This document shows, one piece after another, positions 43,706 through 53,893 of a stretch of DNA of 64,000 bases. The translations under genes and the position numbers were made by a program. The notes below the pieces were generated by a model. The model did no database searches. It was not told the origin of the DNA and was given only the letters and a program-made list of their open reading frames with translations. Location of the stretch: positions 2,180,001 to 2,244,000 of the forward strand of contig NZ_PDJO01000001.1 of the NCBI RefSeq assembly GCF_002563775.1. The letters run 5' to 3'. This DNA comes from Thioclava sp. ES.031. Its GTDB lineage: Bacteria; Pseudomonadota; Alphaproteobacteria; Rhodobacterales; Rhodobacteraceae. Numbering within the stretch: position 1 is the first letter of the stretch; each line of letters opens with the position of its first letter.

Positions 43706-45130
43706 TCAGACCAAGGTGCCCGCCATGCGGGCGAACAACGCATGCGCCTCTGCCTCGTCGATCAGGTCGACCGTGAATTGCGCGAAGGTCAGGCCGGTCT
43801 CGGGCGCGCTTGCGAACATGATCCGCACATCGTCGCCCGCCTCCGTGATCGAGTCGAGCTGGCCGCCGAATACGGTGGTGTAATTTCCGGCGAACCCGGC
43901 CATCAAATTCTCCAGCGCCTTGGCGCAGGCCACGATCTCGTCCGACGATCCTTTGACGGGCCGCAAGATCCGGTCACTCGGGCCGATCCGCCCGGCAAGC
44001 TGCAGCCCTTCGGGCAGCTCGATGCCCAGCCTGAGCCGCGTCGTTGCCAGAAGCAGCGCGCTCTCCTGCTTGGTCTCGATCTCGGCTTCGGTTTCGGGCA
44101 TTTCGGACCCGGTGACATTCGGCCCCGGCTCGCGAACAGGCTCACGCTCCGCGTCGCGGCCCGGCTTGGACGAACGCGTGACCCGTCGCGGCGACACTTC
44201 AGGCGTGCGGTCGACAGGCCGCGGGTCGGGCCGAAACTCGGGCTCGGCCCCGGGGGGCGCGACGGGCGCGCCGGAATTTGCAGGTTGCGACGCGCGCTTG
44301 CGGACGCTGCGCGCGCGGAACGGCAGGACCGCGCCCCCATGTTCGGAGAGCAGCGGCGAAGGCGCGTCATGGGTGCCGATCGCCAGATCCGCCTCGGTCT
44401 CGGGATCGAGCGAGTCGAGCCCCACCACCGCGCGCCCCGTCATCGCCCCGAGCGCCGCGATCAGCGCCGCACCGCCGCTGCGCTGGAAGGCCTCATCCGA
44501 GGTCTCGGCCTCGCGCAGGAGATCGCGCGCCCCGTGCAGGAAGGCGACCCGCGAGAAATAGGCCGCCGACTCGCGCTGCACCCGCGCTTTCAGCTTTGCC
44601 CGGTCGGTATCGTTGCGCAGCTTGTCGCCGCGCGAAATCGCGAGCAGGCAATCCGACGGGCGCGCCGGCCCCAGCCGCTCGATCATCGTCTTTTCGGTCA
44701 GCCGCCATGCCTGCGAGGCGATCGTCACCCAGATCATCACGTCGCAGGTCGCGATCAGGCCGATCTGCTCTTCGTTCACGTCTTCGGGGCGGCTCAGCGG
44801 CACTTCGACGAATTCGAACCCCTGCAGATGCGGCTGCGCGGAATAGACGTAAATCTCGGAGGGCACGGCCCAGCCTTCTTCGACCTCCGCCGCGTCGATC
44901 TCGCGCCCCGTCGCATCGCGCATCACCACGCCCGGCGTCGCGCGGTACCGCGCGACGACCGTAGGGCGCTCGGTCCGGCCCAGATTGTCGCCGATGCTGC
45001 GCGCGCGCAAAATCGCGTTGAGCACGGTGGACTTGCCGGAATTGACCTCGCCGCAGATCGCCACCCGCAGGGGCGCGCGATGCGGATCGGGCGGCGCGTC
45101 CTCGCGGCTGATCTCTTGCTTGAACATCAT
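43706..45130 (-). CDS. P-loop GTPase-like protein, last gene of the four-GTPase operon (degenerate G3)
   Basis: The 474-residue protein has a GTPase-like domain (about 20-230) with P-loop GEVNSGKST (27-35) and a G4-like SRGD (166-169). Where the G3 DxPG motif should be (109-112) it has EVPL, so hydrolysis may be impaired. A Pro/Arg/Glu-rich linker (about 270-370) leads to a C-terminal alpha/beta domain (375-474). IWVTIASQAWRLTEK resembles IWCTNATQAWRQSEK of the 358-residue gene in this operon, so the two are paralogues. AAGGGG favours ATG at 45130 or 45127; a GTG at 45148 overlaps the previous stop and is an alternative. No known name. Confidence 0.8.
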   Translation of the reverse strand: MMFKQEISREDAPPDPHRAPLRVAICGEVNSGKSTVLNAILRARSIGDNLGRTERPTVVARYRATPGVVMRDATGREIDAAEVEEGWAVPSEIYVYSAQPHLQGFEFVEVPLSRPEDVNEEQIGLIATCDVMIWVTIASQAWRLTEKTMIERLGPARPSDCLLAISRGDKLRNDTDRAKLKARVQRESAAYFSRVAFLHGARDLLREAETSDEAFQRSGGAALIAALGAMTGRAVVGLDSLDPETEADLAIGTHDAPSPLLSEHGGAVLPFRARSVRKRASQPANSGAPVAPPGAEPEFRPDPRPVDRTPEVSPRRVTRSSKPGRDAEREPVREPGPNVTGSEMPETEAEIETKQESALLLATTRLRLGIELPEGLQLAGRIGPSDRILRPVKGSSDEIVACAKALENLMAGFAGNYTTVFGGQLDSITEAGDDVRIMFASAPETGLTFAQFTVDLIDEAEAHALFARMAGTLV

Positions 45131-45144
45131 TGGCCCCTTCGCCC

Positions 45145-47286
45145 TCACGCGGCGCGCGTCGCGGGTTTGCGCCGCGGCATCATGGTGCTGCTGACGGCGC
45201 TCTCGATCGCCCCGAGATTGATCAGACGCCGTTCGAGCACTTCCAGCTTGCTCTGGATCCGGGACGCCAGGCGGCTTTGCATCTGCGGATCACGGGCCAG
45301 CCGTTCCAACTCGGCCCGCTCCTGCTTGAGCTGCAAGGTCCGCTCGCGCACGATCATCTCCATCATCCGCACCATCACCCGCAGCCGCGACCCGCCTGCG
45401 CTGGCGCGTTCCACCAGCGCCTCGCCATAGGCTTGCAGGATCTTCTCCACCGCCGGGCGCAGCTCTTCCGCCGCCACGATCCGCAACCCGTCGAGGGTCT
45501 TCTCGATATTCACGGTCGGACCGCGCCAGAAGGCCCAGCCCCGCTCCAGCGCGAAGTTGATGCGCAGCGCGCGCCGGGTCAGCGTCAGCGTCGAGGTGAA
45601 CGTGTCATGCGGCATATCCGACAGGTCGATCTCTTCGCTGGGATCGTCGAACCGGTCCGCGACCGTGGTGCGGCAGGCATGGATCGCATTGTCGAGCAGC
45701 ACGTCGATCGCCGCACGCGAGCGGGCGTAGCTTTTCGTCACCTCGCGTTCGAGCGCGATCTGCAGCGCGGTCGTGTCGGTCTCGAAACTGCGCGGCGGAC
45801 GACCGTCGCGGATCCGGTTGGTGCGCAGGACATCCTCGAACCGGTCGCGCTGGCTCAGGACGAAATCCTCGATGCTCTTGTTGAGCCGTGTCTCCAGCGC
45901 CGACCAGCCGCGGTTGAGCACCGCTTCGATCTGATGCTCGGCGCTCTCGACATGGTTTTCGAGCGCACCGCGCAGCGATTCCGTCGCCGCGATCTCGCCG
46001 CTCATTTCCTCGATCGCGGCCTCCGCCACGTCCGAGCGGATGCTCTCGATCTGCATCTGCAGCGTGTCGCGTTCGCGGCGGGCGACGAATTGCATCCCCG
46101 ACAGCTCCGCGCGCAGATCGCCGCGCAGTTGGGCGAGCTGCTGACGTCCCACCCCGCCGTCGATCACGGCAGAGAGCACATGTTTGACCTCTTCGACGCC
46201 CGAGGCCAGCAGCAGCCGGTCGATCGGATCCTCGGGCACACGGCCAAAGCGCGAATACAGGTATTGCGCCAGCTCCATCGAGTCCATCTCGGCGCGCGCC
46301 CAGGCGGCTTCCTCGTCGGAGCGCTGGGTGAGGTCGGCGAGATAGGCGCTGCCCGCGACGATCTTGAAATCGATATCGGGGATCGCCGCGCGCAGACGGC
46401 GCGACACATCGGCGATCACGCGGGGCACTTCGACCGCGTAATCGTCGAGCTCGTCGATCCGGTTGAGGAAGATCAGCACATCCTTGTCGTCCTGCTTGGC
46501 GAGAATGCGGATCAGGGCGAGGTCGACATCGGTCAGCGGCTGATGCGCCGAAAGCACCATGATGAACACGTCCGAGCGGTCGAGCGAGCGGCAGGTGAAC
46601 TCGTCACGCACGAGGAACGGGTCGTTCACGCCGGGCGTGTCGGTGATGATCGTGGGCACCTGAAATTCGGGCAAGCGCATGTAGATATTGGCGCTTTTCG
46701 TGAGCGCCGCATAGCGGCCAAGCGCCTCGCGCTCCAACCCGTCATCCGCGCCGGGCCCCGCGCAGACATAGCGTTGCAGCAGATCGGGGGCGAGGAAGTC
46801 GTAATCGTGATGCTGGCCCAGCAGCATCTGGTAATGCTTGCCGAGACGTCGTTGCGCGCGGCGGCGCATCTGCTCGGACTGCTCGCGCAAGATGTCGGTG
46901 TCGAACCCCGGCAGCAGCTCTTCGGTCAGCTTGCGGATGCGGGTGCCGCCATTGATGATCTCGTCCCAATCGGCCTCCGAGAAGAACTCGAACCGCGCAC
47001 CCGTCACCGGGTCTTCGGGCAGGTTGATGCGCATATTGGTCACGACCGAGGTCCACGGATTCACGTCCGAGGGAAGGAAGTCATGCTGGTGCAGGAAGGC
47101 GTTGAGGAAGGTCGACTTGCCCGCCTTCACCTGCCCGATCACCGCAACGCGCGCCGCCCAGTCATGCAGCCGCAAGCGCAGATCGCGGATGCGCGGACGG
47201 GCACTACGTTCGACGGAGGCCTCGATCCGGTCGAGCGCGCCGTTGAGAAAGTCGAGTTCCTTACGCAGTTGCGGGGCAATCTTCAT
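45145..47286 (-). CDS. Large dynamin-like GTPase B (713 aa)
   Basis: The protein has an N-terminal helix bundle, a dynamin-type GTPase domain and a long helical stalk (about 370-700). The GTPase motifs are intact: P-loop GQVKAGKS (51-58), switch I region LPSDVNPWTSVVT, DTPG (216-219) and NRID (275-278). VLSAHQPLTDVDLALIRI is shared with the 646-residue partner. No transmembrane helix is evident, but WAFWRGPTVNIEKTL in the stalk could be a membrane paddle. Bacterial dynamin-like proteins remodel membranes and often act in pairs. Starts overlap (ATGA) with the 358-residue gene. Confidence 0.88.
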   Translation of the reverse strand: MKIAPQLRKELDFLNGALDRIEASVERSARPRIRDLRLRLHDWAARVAVIGQVKAGKSTFLNAFLHQHDFLPSDVNPWTSVVTNMRINLPEDPVTGARFEFFSEADWDEIINGGTRIRKLTEELLPGFDTDILREQSEQMRRRAQRRLGKHYQMLLGQHHDYDFLAPDLLQRYVCAGPGADDGLEREALGRYAALTKSANIYMRLPEFQVPTIITDTPGVNDPFLVRDEFTCRSLDRSDVFIMVLSAHQPLTDVDLALIRILAKQDDKDVLIFLNRIDELDDYAVEVPRVIADVSRRLRAAIPDIDFKIVAGSAYLADLTQRSDEEAAWARAEMDSMELAQYLYSRFGRVPEDPIDRLLLASGVEEVKHVLSAVIDGGVGRQQLAQLRGDLRAELSGMQFVARRERDTLQMQIESIRSDVAEAAIEEMSGEIAATESLRGALENHVESAEHQIEAVLNRGWSALETRLNKSIEDFVLSQRDRFEDVLRTNRIRDGRPPRSFETDTTALQIALEREVTKSYARSRAAIDVLLDNAIHACRTTVADRFDDPSEEIDLSDMPHDTFTSTLTLTRRALRINFALERGWAFWRGPTVNIEKTLDGLRIVAAEELRPAVEKILQAYGEALVERASAGGSRLRVMVRMMEMIVRERTLQLKQERAELERLARDPQMQSRLASRIQSKLEVLERRLINLGAIESAVSSTMMPRRKPATRAA

Positions 47287-48359
47287 GGCTTGGTCCTCTT
47301 GCTCGCGTAGGCTGGCTCGGATTCGGTCGGGGGCTCGGCGTCCAGCCGATCAAGCAGATGCTCGACATGGGCGAGAACATCCGCGGCATCCGTGAAGGCG
47401 TGGCCCGCCGTGAGTTCCTCCCAGAGCGCGCGGGCCGAGCCCGACGCCGGGGCGCGCTCCAGGGGCGGATAGTCGGGCAGCGGCGAGTCGAGGATCAGCG
47501 GCTCGGCATCCGTCACATCCGGAAGCTCCGCCCTTTCCGCCTTGACCAGACGCGCCGAGCGCAGACGGCGCGGCTTGACCGGCGTGCGCGGTTTCGGGAA
47601 GGCGATCACGTCGCGCTCGCCCACGAATTTCGCGACCGTCTCGTTCGCGGCCCCCGAAGGCTTGTCGATCTGCCCGACCAGCCGCTCGATCTCGCGCGCG
47701 ATCTGCGCCACGTCCGAGGGCTCGGTCAGCGCGGCCAGACGGATCGTCGGGAAGACCTCCCCCGCCTCGCGCTCGACCCGGCGCATCAGTCGCGCGCGGG
47801 TGCGTTCATCAGCCAGACGGTCGCCATGAGTCACCACCAGCATCGGCTGCGCCAGCAGCGCCTCGGGCATCTCGTCCCAGACCGCCTTCTCGCTTTGCCG
47901 CCACGCCTGCGTCGCGTTGGTGCACCAGATCACCAGATCGGCATAGCGCAGCATCCGCTGCCAGCTTTCCATCGGCATGTTCGGGTCCGACGAACCGGGC
48001 GTGTCGATGATGTCGATCCGATCGAGGATCGGCGCGTTATGGGCGATCACGCAATAGCGCGCCTTCTCCAGATTGAGCTGCGCCAGATCGGCGAGCGGGC
48101 GCGCGACCTCTTCCTTGTCGATCCAAAGTTGCGCCCGGTCCCCGCCGCGCACCAGCCAGATCGGCGGCAGCGCGGTCGCGGTGACATGCGAGGGCAGCAC
48201 TTTCTCGCCCAGCAACCCGTTGATAAGACTGGTCTTCCCGGCGGAGAATTCGCCCGCGACCAGAACCCGCAGCTTGCGCGGTTTCGGAGTGGCCTGCGGG
48301 GCTTGCGCTTTCGACAGATCCGGCAAGTCGGGGCGTTCACGTTTGCGCAGCGAGTTCAT
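47283..48359 (-). CDS. Smaller dynamin-family GTPase (358 aa)
   Basis: The protein has a basic N-terminus, a GTPase domain with P-loop GEFSAGKT (36-43), DTPG (119-122) and G4-like THGD (177-180), then a disordered Pro/Arg-rich region and a C-terminal helical piece (about 305-345; SARALWEELTAGHAF). It lacks the long stalk of true dynamins, so it is more like a regulatory GTPase. The THGD in place of NKxD is shared in form with SRGD of the 474-residue paralogue. It is coupled by ATGA overlaps to both flanking large dynamin-like genes. Confidence 0.85.
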   Translation of the reverse strand: MNSLRKRERPDLPDLSKAQAPQATPKPRKLRVLVAGEFSAGKTSLINGLLGEKVLPSHVTATALPPIWLVRGGDRAQLWIDKEEVARPLADLAQLNLEKARYCVIAHNAPILDRIDIIDTPGSSDPNMPMESWQRMLRYADLVIWCTNATQAWRQSEKAVWDEMPEALLAQPMLVVTHGDRLADERTRARLMRRVEREAGEVFPTIRLAALTEPSDVAQIAREIERLVGQIDKPSGAANETVAKFVGERDVIAFPKPRTPVKPRRLRSARLVKAERAELPDVTDAEPLILDSPLPDYPPLERAPASGSARALWEELTAGHAFTDAADVLAHVEHLLDRLDAEPPTESEPAYASKRTKP

Positions 48360-50296
48360 GCCGAGAGCCTTTCCTTATCGTGACCGGACGCGCCCGACAG
48401 GCAGCGCTCGCGCACCGCCTTGCAGAACTGACCCTGATCGAAGGCGAAGCGCTCCACGATCTCGCGGCTGCGCGCGATGGCGGGGTCGAAATATTCGGTC
48501 ATCAGATCTTCGATCAGAGGCGTGGTTTCCGCGATGATCACCTCGCGATAGCGCGCCTGCGCCGCCCCCTTGCGGTTGAAGCGCCAATAACGACGCCACC
48601 ATGCGCCCTGCATGTCCAGCGTGATCATCCGCGCCAGCACGGTCGGCGCGCGATGTTGCGGCTGTTCGGGGAAGCGGCTGACATCGGCCTCGCGGATTAC
48701 GCCGAACTCGGCGGCGAGGAAGCTGTCGATCCCGTCGCTGACCATATCGAGCGCCGATTCCCCCTTGCGCCGCAGCCGCGCGCAATTCGACGCGAAGGCC
48801 GTCTTCATCGCCATACGCAGCGCGGTCGGGTCGTGGGTCCACGCGCCGATCTCGCCATAGGTGTCGATATGCGATTGCAGCGCCTCCAGCGCCGAGGCCA
48901 CGAATTGCTCCTGCGCCCGGTCGAGCCGCTCGCGCAGCTCTGCGCGCAGCCCCGCCGCCTCGTTATTGAAGGCCGACACCGCCTCTTCCTCGATCTCGGC
49001 GAGGCGGAGCATCAGTTTGGACTCGCTGAGAATGGTGGACGGATCGGCCACGCGCGCGACGCTATCGACGGTCTCGGCGCGCTCGATGATGCGCTCCAGC
49101 TCGTCTTGCACATCGCCCAGCACGGCCTGCCCCGGCCCCTCGACGATGCGCGAGACGACGGCCTGCATCAGCGCGCCGATCCCCGAGGCTTCCATCGCGC
49201 GCTGGCGCAGCTCGGTCTCGCTGCTGGGCGTGGTGCCGGTCATCTTCTCCAGCGCGGCGCGGCTGGCGGGCGCCATCTCGCTCACATCGCCCATCGCGCA
49301 ATTGGCCCAGTAGCCCGAGCCGAACAGGATCTCGATCTCCTCGCCAAGCCCCATGCGGCCCAGCGTCTTGCGGATCGAGTTGCGGATCGCAGCCTGCGCC
49401 CCGCGCGGGTCTTCAAGCTCGTCGATGCGGTTGACGAAGATCACCACCTCGCGCGCGTCGATGGCGCAGATGATGCGCAAAAGCGCCAGATCCATCGTGG
49501 TCAGCGCCTGATGGGCGGAAAGCACGACGATACAGGCGCGGCTGTCGCCGATCGCGTTGAGCGTAATCTGCTCGCGCATCATGAACGTGTCGTTCACCCC
49601 CGGCGTGTCGCGCAGGCACAAGCCTCGCGGCAGATGCGGCAGATCGAGATAGAGATCGGCGGATTTCGTCAGATCGGCATAGGTGCCCTCGATGGCCCCT
49701 TCGGCCAGATCGTCGGGATCGCCGTAGCAGATATATTGATCCAGCACCGCCTTATCGAGCGTCGGGAACGCGCGGCTGGTGCCCAGAAGGTCTTCGAACT
49801 GTTCGCCAAGCCGCGCCTCGGTCGCATCGCGCATCGCGGTGACCTGTTTGCGCACGCTCTCCGCCTCGGTCTCGAAGCCCGCACGGTTGGCCATCTCGCC
49901 CAGACGCCCGCCCGTCGCCACAAGCCGATCCCATTCGTGGCGGTCGAAGAACCGAAACAGCGCGCGCGTGTCCATCGGGCGATGGCGCGCGTTCAGATGC
50001 AGCGCCGTGATCACCGAGGTCCACGGGTTCACATCCGAGGGCAGCATCCCCGGCTTGCCGATCAACGCGTTGAGAAGGGTGCTTTTTCCCGCTTTGACCT
50101 GACCGATGACGCTGACGGTCGGCTCGAACGCGTCGATCGTCTCCAGAACGCTGTCGAGCTGATCCTCGACAAAACCGAGATCGGCGTCCGAGACGTCCTT
50201 TACGGCCTGTTCGAGCTGATCGAGCGTCTCCCAGTAAGAATTGAGCGCCTCGAAACCACGGCGATGCCAATCAAAGATGGAATTCGCTTCATACAC
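48356..50296 (-). CDS. Large dynamin-like GTPase A (646 aa), first gene of the operon
   Basis: It has an N-terminal helical segment (1-58), a GTPase domain with P-loop GQVKAGKS (65-72), LPSDVNPWTSVIT, DTPG (230-233) and NRID (289-292), and a helical stalk (about 340-630). The tryptophan/arginine-rich MQGAWWRRYWRFNRK near residue 560 is a likely membrane-contact element. GTG at 50296 is chosen because GGAGAG lies 7 bases upstream; the 17 further codons lack a ribosome site. It is paralogous to the 713-residue protein. With the other three genes it forms an overlap-coupled operon. Confidence 0.87.
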   Translation of the reverse strand: MYEANSIFDWHRRGFEALNSYWETLDQLEQAVKDVSDADLGFVEDQLDSVLETIDAFEPTVSVIGQVKAGKSTLLNALIGKPGMLPSDVNPWTSVITALHLNARHRPMDTRALFRFFDRHEWDRLVATGGRLGEMANRAGFETEAESVRKQVTAMRDATEARLGEQFEDLLGTSRAFPTLDKAVLDQYICYGDPDDLAEGAIEGTYADLTKSADLYLDLPHLPRGLCLRDTPGVNDTFMMREQITLNAIGDSRACIVVLSAHQALTTMDLALLRIICAIDAREVVIFVNRIDELEDPRGAQAAIRNSIRKTLGRMGLGEEIEILFGSGYWANCAMGDVSEMAPASRAALEKMTGTTPSSETELRQRAMEASGIGALMQAVVSRIVEGPGQAVLGDVQDELERIIERAETVDSVARVADPSTILSESKLMLRLAEIEEEAVSAFNNEAAGLRAELRERLDRAQEQFVASALEALQSHIDTYGEIGAWTHDPTALRMAMKTAFASNCARLRRKGESALDMVSDGIDSFLAAEFGVIREADVSRFPEQPQHRAPTVLARMITLDMQGAWWRRYWRFNRKGAAQARYREVIIAETTPLIEDLMTEYFDPAIARSREIVERFAFDQGQFCKAVRERCLSGASGHDKERLSA

Positions 50297-50770: not shown

Positions 50771-50771
50771 A
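50750..50771 (+). promoter_or_regulatory. Inverted repeat overlapping the arsRC start, candidate ArsR operator
   Basis: TATTTCG and CGAAATA form a perfect 7-bp dyad with an 8-base spacer, ending on the first base of the arsRC ATG and covering the putative -10 box TAAAAC. With that promoter the mRNA would start at about the ATG, consistent with the absence of a ribosome site (leaderless). Confidence 0.55.
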
Positions 50772-51610
50772 TGGATCAGATGACACCTCAGCGGCTCACC
50801 GTGCTGGGCCATGCGCAACGCCTTGCGATCTTCCGGCTCCTGATGCGCCGGTATCCCGACCGGCTGCCCGCAGGCGAGATCGGCGCGGCGCTGGAGCTGA
50901 AACCCTCGACGCTCTCGGCCTATCTCGCAGCGCTGAGCGAGGTCGGACTGATCGGTCAGACGCGGGCGGGCACTTCGCTGCGCTACGGGATCGAGATGGA
51001 GACTGTGCGCTCCCTCTTCGATGCGCTGCTGATCGACTGCTGTCAGGGCCGCCCCGATATCTGCTCCCCTCTCGCGCAGCCCGACCCAAGCGGAGACCCT
51101 ACGATGACGCGATCTGCGGCGGGCCGGAAATTCAACGTGCTTTTCATCTGCACCGGAAATTCGGCGCGCTCCATCCTCGCCGAGACGATCCTGCGAGACC
51201 GCGCGGGCGATCGGTTCAACGCCTATTCGGCGGGCACGAAACCCTATTCCGAGCTGAACCCTTTCGCGGTGCAGGTGCTGCGCGACAAGGGCCATGATGT
51301 CACCCCCCTGCGGGCGAAGAACATCTCCGAGTTTCAGGGAGAGGACGCGCCCCCGCTCGATTTCGTCTTCACCGTCTGCGACCTCGCCGCGAACGAGGAA
51401 TGCCCGCCCTGGCCGGGCCAACCGATCAGCGGCCATTGGGGGATGGCGGACCCGGTGAAGGCCACCGGCACCGAGGCCGAGCGCGCGCTGGCCTTCCAGC
51501 AAGCCTATGGCGCGCTTCACCGCCGGATCGAGGCCTTCGCCGCCCTGCCACTTACAACGCTCGACCGCATCGCGCTGCAATCCGCCGTCGATGACATCGG
51601 CCGCAACTAA
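50771..51610 (+). CDS. ArsR-ArsC fusion: arsenic-responsive repressor joined to arsenate reductase
   Basis: The 279-residue protein has an ArsR-type winged HTH (about 5-85; [21 protein letters not shown]) whose end carries Cys90, Cys91 and Cys98 ([10 protein letters not shown]), the trivalent-arsenic site of one ArsR type. From about residue 120 a low-molecular-weight phosphatase-type arsenate reductase follows, with CX5R in [10 protein letters not shown] (Cys127-Arg133). One polypeptide may thus sense As(III) and reduce As(V). ATG at 50771 is preferred over TTG at 50735 and ATG at 50780. It is first in the arsRC-gapdh-arsJ operon. No As(III) exporter gene is adjacent. Confidence 0.88.
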
Positions 51611-51620
51611 AGGACTGACC

Positions 51621-52619
51621 ATGACCACCTACGCCCTCAATGGCCTCGGCCGCATCGGGAAACTCGCCTTGAAGCCGCTTCTGGCACGCGGCGCGAAGAT
51701 CGCATGGATCAACGACGCGGTGGGCGATGCGGCGATGCAGGCGCATCTGCTGGAATTCGACTCCGTTCATGGCCGCTGGGACGCGGAGTTCGCGAGCGAC
51801 GAGAGCAGCGTCACCATCGACGGCACCCGCCTGCCCTTCATCGGCACGCGAAACATCGAAGACCTGCCGCTCGACGGCGTCGACGTGGTGATCGACTGCA
51901 CCGGAGTCTTCAAATCCGAATCTGCACTCGCCCCCTATTTCGCGGCGGGCGTGAAGAAGGTCGTGGTCTCGGCCCCGGTGAAAGACGGCCCGACCGCGAA
52001 TATCGTCTATGGCGTGAACAATGACGCCTATGACCCGGCTGCGCATAGCATCGTGACGGCGGCCAGCTGCACCACCAACTGCCTCGCCCCGGTGGTGAAG
52101 GTCATCCACGAGAACCTGCGGATCAAACACGGTGCGATCACCACGATCCATGACGTGACCAACACCCAGACCATCGTGGACCGCCCCGCCAAGGACCTGC
52201 GCCGCGCGCGTTCTGCGCTCAATTCGCTGATCCCGACCACGACCGGCTCGGCCACCGCGATCACGCTGATCTATCCCGAGCTGAAGGGGCGCTTGAACGG
52301 CCATGCGGTGCGCGTGCCGCTGCTCAATGCCTCGCTCACCGATTGCGTCTTCGAGGTCGAACGCGAAACGACCGCCGAAGAGGTCAACGCGCTGTTCAAA
52401 TCCGCCGCTGAGGGCGATCTGACCGGCATCCTCGGCTACGAGACGCGCCCGCTCGTGTCCTCGGATTACACCAACGACATCCGCTCCTCGATCATCGACG
52501 CGCCCTCGACGATGGTGGTGAACGGCACGCAGGTGAAGGTCTATGCGTGGTATGACAACGAGATGGGCTATGCCTACCGGCTGGCCGATGTCGCGCTGAT
52601 GGTGGGGGCGTCGCTGTGA
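51621..52619 (+). CDS. ArsJ-associated glyceraldehyde-3-phosphate dehydrogenase
   Basis: The 332-residue protein is a type I GAPDH: NAD-binding [16 protein letters not shown], catalytic Cys in [12 protein letters not shown], and [15 protein letters not shown]. In arsJ operons this enzyme uses arsenate in place of phosphate to make 1-arseno-3-phosphoglycerate, which ArsJ exports; that role is taken from the known gene pair. AAGGA lies 8 bases before the start. It overlaps arsJ by GTGA. As the main glycolytic GAPDH usually lies elsewhere, this is likely a dedicated copy. Confidence 0.93.
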
Positions 52620-53893
52620 GCGAGAGCCCCGCCAGCCGCCCCGAGGGTTTCTCCGCCTATATCGCGGTGACGGCGGCCTATTGGGCCTTCATGCTCACCG
52701 ATGGCGCGCTGCGGATGCTGGTGCTGCTGCATTTCCACACGCTGGGATTCTCGCCGGTGCAGCTGGCTTATCTGTTCATCCTGTATGAAGTGGCGGGGAT
52801 GGTGACGAACCTCTCGGCAGGCTGGATCGCGGCGCGGTTCGGGCTGGTCTCGACGCTCTATGCGGGGCTGTCGCTGCAGGTCGTGGCGCTGATCGCGCTG
52901 GCGCAGCTGAACCCGTCCTGGGCGATCGGGGCCTCGGTGGCCTATGTGATGGTGGTACAGGGCCTCAGCGGGGTTGCGAAAGACCTTGCGAAAATGTCCT
53001 CGAAATCGGCGGTGAAGCTGCTGGCGCCCACCGGCAAGGGCGGGCTGTTCAAATGGGTCGCGGTGCTGACCGGGTCGAAGAACGCGGTGAAGGGCGTGGG
53101 CTTCCTGCTGGGAGCGGCGCTGCTGGCCGCGCTCGGGTTCGATTACGCGGTGGTCGCGATGGCGGTGGTGCTGGCGCTGATCCTCGCCGCGATCGTCGTG
53201 GCGATGCCGCCGGGCCTGCCGCGCGGGCGCAAAGGCGCGAAATTCTCCGAAGTCTTCTCGAAATCGGCCAATGTGAACTGGCTGTCAGCGGCGCGGGTCT
53301 TCCTGTTCGGTGCGCGCGACGTCTGGTTCGTCGTCGGCATCCCGATCTATTTCTACGCGGTGCTGTCGGACGGCACACATGCAGGCGACCGCGCGGCCTT
53401 CTTCCTCGTGGGCACCTTCATGGCGCTCTGGATCATCCTTTACGGCGCGGTGCAGGCCGCCGCCCCGCGCATTCTGAACGCCAAGTCCCGCCCCGAGGGC
53501 GCGCTGATCGGGGCCGCGCGGCACTGGGCGCTGGCGCTGCTTGCCGTGCCTGCCCTTCTCAGCGCCGCCGTGCTGATCGACCCGACGCCGTCGCTGTGGC
53601 TCAGCTCCGTGCTGGTCGTGGGCCTGCTGGCCTTCGGCGCGATCTTCGCGGTGAATTCCTCGCTCCACTCTTATCTCATCCTCGCCTTCACGCAGGCCGA
53701 GCGGGTGACGATGGATGTGGGCTTCTACTACATGGCCAATGCGGGCGGGCGGCTGATCGGCACGCTGCTGTCGGGGCTGAGTTACCAGATGGGCGGGCTG
53801 CCCGCCGTGATGATCACCGCGACGGTGATGGTGGGTTTGAGCGCGCTCGCGGCGGGGCGGCTTGCGCCCGAGACATCCCTCACGAGCCCGTGA
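52616..53893 (+). CDS. arsJ: ArsJ, major-facilitator exporter of 1-arseno-3-phosphoglycerate
   Basis: The 425-residue protein has about 12 membrane helices and the MFS layout. The N-terminus ([36 protein letters not shown]) and the [11 protein letters not shown] loop are typical of ArsJ. It exports the unstable arsenylated glycolytic intermediate made by the adjacent GAPDH, which gives arsenate resistance. The GTG start overlaps the gapdh stop. It ends the ars operon. Confidence 0.92.

Follow-up and report, generated by a model that had tools for sequence, protein, structure and literature searches.

The question that this locus raises is what a bacterium might do with four dynamin-type GTPases encoded one directly after the other. 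The locus lies in a stretch of 64,000 nucleotides from Thioclava sp. ES.031 (contig NZ_PDJO01000001.1, positions 2,180,001 to 2,244,000; hereafter the window), on its minus strand, and reads D1 (50296-48356, GTG start, 646 residues), S1 (48359-47283, 358 residues), D2 (47286-45145, 713 residues) and S2 (45148-43706, GTG start, 480 residues), where D1 and D2 are large dynamin-like GTPases and S1 and S2 are small proteins. We see an even chance that the products of this operon form a single heteromeric machine for membrane remodelling, with the small, stalkless partners gating it, a reading drawn from comparison of sequences and predicted structures. The preliminary description of this DNA had already placed four consecutive minus-strand genes here, and all four open reading frames (ORFs) were found at that place and on that strand, each stop codon overlapping the next start by four bases (ATGA, ATGA and, given the GTG start of S2, GTGA); its sizes hold for the first three proteins, while its 474 residues for S2 belong to an alternative ATG start at 45130, which does without the GTGA overlap. 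That the operon encodes GTPases throughout is borne out by the Pfam family Dynamin_N, for which D1 (55.3 bits), S1 (45.3), D2 (56.3) and S2 (29.2) all score above the cut-off of 27. D1 and D2 are 30% identical over 625 residues (E 2e-60), S1 and S2 27% identical over 204 residues (E 7e-17), and the motifs reported as common to the large pair and to the small pair are present in both members of each; what had been read in the small pair as T/S-x-GD in place of NKxD is, however, the ordinary G4 position, written [T/S][H/R]xD. The genome is a single contig of 4.02 Mb, in which these four genes are the only matches to D2, to S2 and to the alignment of large proteins.

The large proteins have the size and the motifs of full dynamins. 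The motifs G1, G3 and G4 are intact in D1 (GQVKAGKS, DTPG and NRID), in D2 and in every D1 and D2 relative with data, and the length of both proteins, together with a conserved tryptophan-rich segment in which a Trp is invariant across 13 sequences, is consistent with the helical stalk and membrane-binding tip of dynamins. As in bacterial operon pairs of dynamin-like proteins (DLPs), two large DLP genes share a single operon, here with S1 between them. Both small proteins have the dynamin-type G domain; no stalk or GTPase effector region was found in S2, judging by its structural model, or in S1, judging by its length, with about 130 residues after the G domain. From these features we class S1 and S2 as stalkless relatives of dynamins rather than as full dynamins. 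S1 is canonical in G1, G3 and G4 (GEFSAGKT, DTPG and THGD). S2 begins with a G domain (residues 24-238; 44435..45079, minus strand, as for the other parts) that has a P-loop and G4 and in which the G3 aspartate is replaced by glutamate and the G3 glycine is lost; it continues with a linker predicted at low confidence and probably disordered (residues 239-375; 44024..44434; predicted local distance difference test score, pLDDT, below 50), and ends in a C-terminal domain (residues 376-480; 43709..44023) with a predicted order of strands and helices like that of roadblock/LC7 proteins. The solved folds nearest to the model of the S2 G domain are IniA, BDLP and CjDLP2; of these, Nostoc BDLP (2j68) and mycobacterial IniA (6j72) are single long proteins with stalks, unlike S2. 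An Era or Ras origin of the small proteins, for which alignment with Era-like families would have spoken, is rejected on this model and the family scores (25.9 for S1 against Era, cut-off 237; 23 for S2 against Der, cut-off 306.7).

Relatives of the operon were collected from 101 genomes of the order, the window's own included, and S2-like and D2-like proteins occur in the same 42 of them. We fetched 49 regions around matches and clustered their neighbouring genes together with those of the window (50 regions in all); the gene caller had been trained on seven genes of the window and overlooks some starts, and in one region (L082) it finds no large gene. The order D1-S1-D2-S2 recurs on one strand in 12 further loci (L034-L036, L038, L085, L132-L138), making 13 with the window, L038 being counted though its S1 is called short. 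Eight of these 12 relatives carry a roadblock-like gene of family F8 upstream of the four-gene core and six a gene of family F18 downstream of it (L134 stops at the contig end). L135 and L136 have a third large-small pair and hence six consecutive GTPase genes, with a gene of family F15 as well in L136; in L137 (7247-9094) a single protein of 615 residues joins an S2 relative to a tyrosine/dual-specificity phosphatase domain (PF22785) and to a roadblock-like F15 domain. Across the 49 regions, 48 of 55 full-length large genes have a small gene directly downstream, and the large/small pair is thus the stable unit. The commonest layout of all is kinase-FHA-PP2C-U-L-S, in which L is a large GTPase, S a small one and U another protein that resembles GTPases; the layout is often followed by a small F6-family protein (15/50). 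The PP2C phosphatase, kinase and FHA families are present in 37, 34 and 32 of the 50 regions, and for one member of each family Pfam confirmed the assignment. Beside the kinase-FHA-PP2C loci we also observed families F10 and F16 (for example L065:11195-11977 and L048:6976-7806), proteins of about 260-276 residues that form one family (profile probability 99%), have no clear Pfam match and would be a further part of the larger system.

Beyond these regions, the wider family was found almost only in one alphaproteobacterial family. Among 240 genomes of the class the window's own was the sole match at E 1e-20 with large-protein alignment A6, a scan that scored only four stretches per genome, so that relatives in the class may be missed. 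A scan of named genomes confirmed at least 33 loci, many of them distant dynamins; the matches listed include one Hyphomicrobiaceae bacterium with a large-small pair. D2-type proteins are present in 15 of 394 genomes of the family at E 1e-120, the window's own included, and among the matches listed in named records are Pseudogemmobacter bohemicus, Paracoccus sp. IB05 (two loci), Rhodobacterales HKCCE2091, a Roseicyclus metagenome-assembled genome and an uncultured Rhodobacteraceae bacterium.

The small GTPases divide into two classes at G3. We counted 79 aligned small-GTPase G domains, all with a P-loop; as 23 ORFs (16 U, 4 S, 2 S2 and 1 S1) whose called frame lacks a P-loop were left out, the retention of the P-loop is partly a matter of selection. 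G3 reads D-P-G in 13/13 S1 and 36/36 S proteins (49/49 together). Glutamate stands at the aspartate position in 15/15 S2 proteins, all of which have lost the G3 glycine, and in 14/15 U proteins, where the glycine is kept in 0/15 (for S2 and U together, Glu in 29/30 and Gly in 0/30), and the G4 aspartate is retained in 78 of the 79 domains. A single clade of S2 and U is compatible with the data (clade test, p 0.41). Because G3 separates S and S1 from U and S2, multi-GTPase units appear, from their sequences, to tend to pair a canonical small GTPase with a switch-deviant one, either S with U or S1 with S2. The exceptions are two-pair loci (L042-L044, L046) whose small proteins both keep D-P-G, one of those in L046 having no P-loop in the called frame.

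We suggest that D1 and D2 would assemble on the inner membrane as full-size dynamin-like GTPases and do the membrane work, with S1 and S2 pairing with them through their G domains. This pairing is proposed on the ground that G-domain dimerization activates dynamin-type GTPases and that one bacterial pair needs heterotypic dimers: in Campylobacter jejuni CjDLP1/CjDLP2, hydrolysis depends on heterotypic G dimers (PMC6104087; here and below, papers cited by PMC number are drawn on for parts of their text). S1, with its catalytic motifs all kept, would be the switchable partner. S2, whose P-loop and G4 are kept while the G3 aspartate is glutamate and the G3 glycine is gone, would be expected to bind nucleotide without normal switching and to act as a fixed partner or scaffold. 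Its C-terminal domain might either recruit or replace the free-standing roadblock-like protein that is found beside most of the four-gene relatives, and in other loci the kinase, the FHA protein and the PP2C phosphatase could take the control role; signalling input in relatives would then enter through the roadblock-like or the kinase-FHA-PP2C genes. The use to the cell would probably be envelope repair or vesicle-type remodelling. We regard as rather unlikely a more specific version, in which the S2 type is a stalkless pseudo-dynamin that ends in a roadblock domain and, together with free-standing roadblock proteins, gates a membrane machine of two dynamins.

How far the roadblock link carries was weighed with a profile built from 27 proteins of roadblock type, which came from loci that a PF03259 search of 150 genomes had returned. 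Against PF03259 itself, only 2 of 27 F8, F15 and F6 proteins match at E 1 or better, and the best match seen, of one F8 protein (19.0 bits, E 0.0012), is under the cut-off of 23. The three families pooled match the roadblock profile at a probability of 92% (E 7e-7), with a score of 48.95 compared to a maximum of 32.0 for shuffled columns (0/40 shuffles as high). Singly, F6 reaches 54% and F15 19%, while unrelated families of the same loci stay at or below 4%, and F15 matches both F6 (99%) and F8 (67-74%). We consider it likely, from these profile comparisons, that F8, F6 and F15 are roadblock/LC7-like. For the S2 C-terminal domain a roadblock/LC7-like fold is possible: it scores 28.7 with the roadblock profile (shuffled maximum 14.7), though at a probability of just 32%; its two subgroups match one another at 97%, and one of them matches F8 at 87-91%. 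Past residue 350 the predicted elements of S2 run helix, strand, helix, three strands, helix, which we take to be an order that fits roadblock proteins. The fold search with the whole S2 model was filled by G-domain matches, Rag GTPases not being among the matches listed, and hence speaks neither for nor against this assignment. Profile searches of the PDB with alignments A1, A2 and A12 gave nothing usable; cvnB5, presumably a roadblock protein, came up once at E 1.3 and was gone with a larger alignment.

Several observations weigh against the proposed machine or against its roadblock component. Independent occurrence of the four genes in relatives had been named as a sign against the paired-duplication idea, and this is half the case: the four-gene order recurs in the 12 loci above, yet D2-S2 occurs without D1-S1 in L141 and in L084, where F8 is present and whose strain carries D1-S1-D2 at another locus, L086, and a D1/S1-like pair stands by itself in L081; because the pairs occur apart, a four-part complex is not obligatory. 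Further partial loci are L083 and L086, in which D1-S1-D2 is followed by another large gene with no called S2, and L142, with D2, a small gene of unclear type and F8. (L139 was dropped as a duplicate of L088, which starts near a contig end; L140 holds a D2 fragment only; and L087, where D1 is broken and a full S1 is not called, is described only.) The S2 proteins of L135 and L136 are short and have no C-terminal domain, and the frame as called shows no P-loop in 16 of 31 U ORFs, whether through short gene calls or true loss. F8 alone reaches just 6% with the roadblock profile and gives no direct match to F6 (0.5%), and the S2 subgroup that includes the window's protein does not match F8 (about 0.5%, with 5/40 shuffles as high). 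The S2 C-terminal piece of the window by itself has no Pfam match, nor do 9 of 10 such pieces, the remaining one giving a weak TetR_C match. The F8 model is uninformative on the fold, given a pLDDT of 46.5 and a best Foldseek match of E 0.18. The window's genome, moreover, has no match to F8 in a search that had no positive control and none to PF03259 in a search whose positive controls matched in 3/14 genomes; F18 is not called beside the window operon, and no F8 remnant was seen between D1 and the next gene in the best 30 tblastn rows (F8, F6, F15 and F18 as queries); at the nucleotide level, the similarity to a same-genus locus lies mainly at the ArsR end. A same-genus genome, G088, holds the operon at the same site together with both F8 and F18, so that the lineage of the window has probably lost the two genes.

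The known systems nearest to this one differ from it in composition. CjDLP1 and CjDLP2 (5owv, PMC6104087) are, as here, adjacent dynamin-like genes with related G domains, expected to be heterotypic partners, but both have a neck and trunk, whereas in Thioclava two partners are stalkless and the genes number four. LeoABC of enterotoxigenic E. coli (PMC4159319), which affects vesicle release, likewise brings more than two dynamin-type genes together; in it, however, one DLP is split, LeoB and LeoC making up one DLP, whereas here each large protein is whole and the small proteins add further G domains. No split DLP is found among the four proteins, PADLOC matches to LeoA and LeoBC are weak and have no curated cut-off, and the sole match listed to the NCBIfam LeoA model is S1, at 13.7 bits with a cut-off of 325. 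The statement that known bacterial dynamin pairs are usually two genes thus agrees with the Campylobacter account and fails for LeoABC, which has three. MglA/MglB and the Streptomyces conservons (PMC4316618) resemble this family in joining a GTPase with a roadblock partner, and the conservons also with a kinase; their GTPases are Ras-like, whereas those here are of dynamin type and the unit includes dynamins. DO-GTPase/GAP1 systems (PMC7159879) often have two GTPases, with Glu in Walker B, a feature of 15/15 S2 and 0/13 S1 proteins here, and some come with a kinase and PP2C. No DO-GTPase Pfam match was obtained for the four window proteins, the comparison of neighbours covered the 25 commonest of 122 Pfam families, and the words dynamin and roadblock are absent from the main text of the DO-GTPase paper.

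The patterns described above could also come from a regulatory GTPase cascade with no membrane machine; the large proteins would then act as scaffolds for signalling, under the control of kinase, phosphatase and roadblock proteins. The frequency of kinase, FHA and PP2C genes in the regions and the phosphatase and roadblock-like fusion in L137 fit such a cascade, as does the lack, by hydropathy alone, of an obvious transmembrane stretch outside the G domains. Yet the large proteins retain full dynamin size, intact motifs and the invariant Trp, and the four-gene cores have no kinase module within three genes; we give this explanation a low probability.

A role in defence, against phages or otherwise, with the dynamins sealing or disrupting membranes upon infection, also seems unlikely to us. 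Phage resistance is conferred by B. subtilis DynA (PMC8844932), D1 and D2 are the proteins with the weak LeoA and LeoBC matches, and the patchy occurrence of D2-type proteins in the family is matched by a clean empty site in same-genus genome G100 (L177, G100:C9:56000-75999). There the genes that flank the operon to either side keep their order, at 73-94% identity, and only 164 bp separate the called ORFs of an ArsR-like gene and a 5'-nucleotidase where the window has the operon, which fits gain or loss of all four genes as one unit. Third-position GC does not mark the operon as foreign (0.84-0.86 in the four genes, mean 0.850 in the 40 genes of the rest of the window). Against a defence role, the system occurs almost only in one bacterial family, and among 100 of 126 neighbour proteins from 17 loci, compared with PADLOC and Pfam at E 1e-10, the sole strong match, to DpdF, is an ordinary RecQ helicase (L084:13536-15602; by NCBIfam, RecQ 727 bits with a cut-off of 640, DpdF 215 bits with a cut-off of 550). 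A defence island is thereby rejected for these neighbours, and the odds of a defence role fall with the DpdF match proving to be RecQ. The recurrent matches to mad3 (11), mad8 (5) and AriA (3) are probably ABC or AAA ATPases, with Pfam ABC_tran in 10 and AAA_21 in 3. That PADLOC DpdF models match this helicase at E 8e-229 is a trap for defence annotation generally.

Adjoining the operon, at 50771-53893 of the window, lie a fusion of an ArsR-type regulator with a low-molecular-weight phosphatase-like (arsenate reductase-like) domain, then a glyceraldehyde-3-phosphate dehydrogenase and a major facilitator superfamily transporter, a set that we take to resemble the ArsJ arsenic pathway.

As for origin, it is very unlikely that a single large/small pair was simply duplicated in tandem, with redundant function: D1/D2 and S1/S2 are homologous and a single clade of S1 and S2 is not rejected (p 0.33), but a single clade of D1 and D2, with five loci constrained, is (approximately unbiased test, p-AU 4e-5), and S2 differs in G3 and in its C-terminal domain. 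This also rejects a recent tandem duplication of D1/D2, and the local duplication first proposed for the operon does not survive it on the large-protein side. In a tree of 57 large proteins D1 clusters with dynamins from kinase-FHA-PP2C loci; D2 forms a separate clade whose long branch calls for caution with this tree. Because D1 groups elsewhere and the joint clade is rejected, the operon looks, from these phylogenies, like two older large/small pairs that were joined, or like a duplication that predates the split of D1 from other dynamins. D1 and D2 distances correlate over 12 loci (rho 0.89; L038 left out because of its short S1 call), other gene pairs giving 0.41-0.63, as expected if D1 and D2 are inherited together.

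Bacterial dynamin operons were already known, and full-length pairs are the case usually discussed. What is new is the tying of full-length dynamins to stalkless dynamin-type partners of two kinds, one canonical and one with a conserved glutamate for the switch aspartate; titles and abstract openings in the open-access literature gave no report linking dynamin with roadblock, PP2C, FHA, Rhodobacter(aceae) or gene neighborhood. If the stalkless partners do gate the dynamins, this would be a small natural system for studying how membrane work can be controlled by the pairing of G domains alone. Rag GTPases and Ragulator combine a G domain with a roadblock domain, and if the pseudo-dynamin and roadblock design described above were true, it would be their bacterial counterpart in architecture, on dynamin-type rather than Ras-type G domains. 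Through the neighbouring kinase-FHA-phosphatase and roadblock-like genes, a bacterial dynamin would be linked to a defined signalling input, in what looks like a single machine that some bacteria carry and their close relatives are missing.

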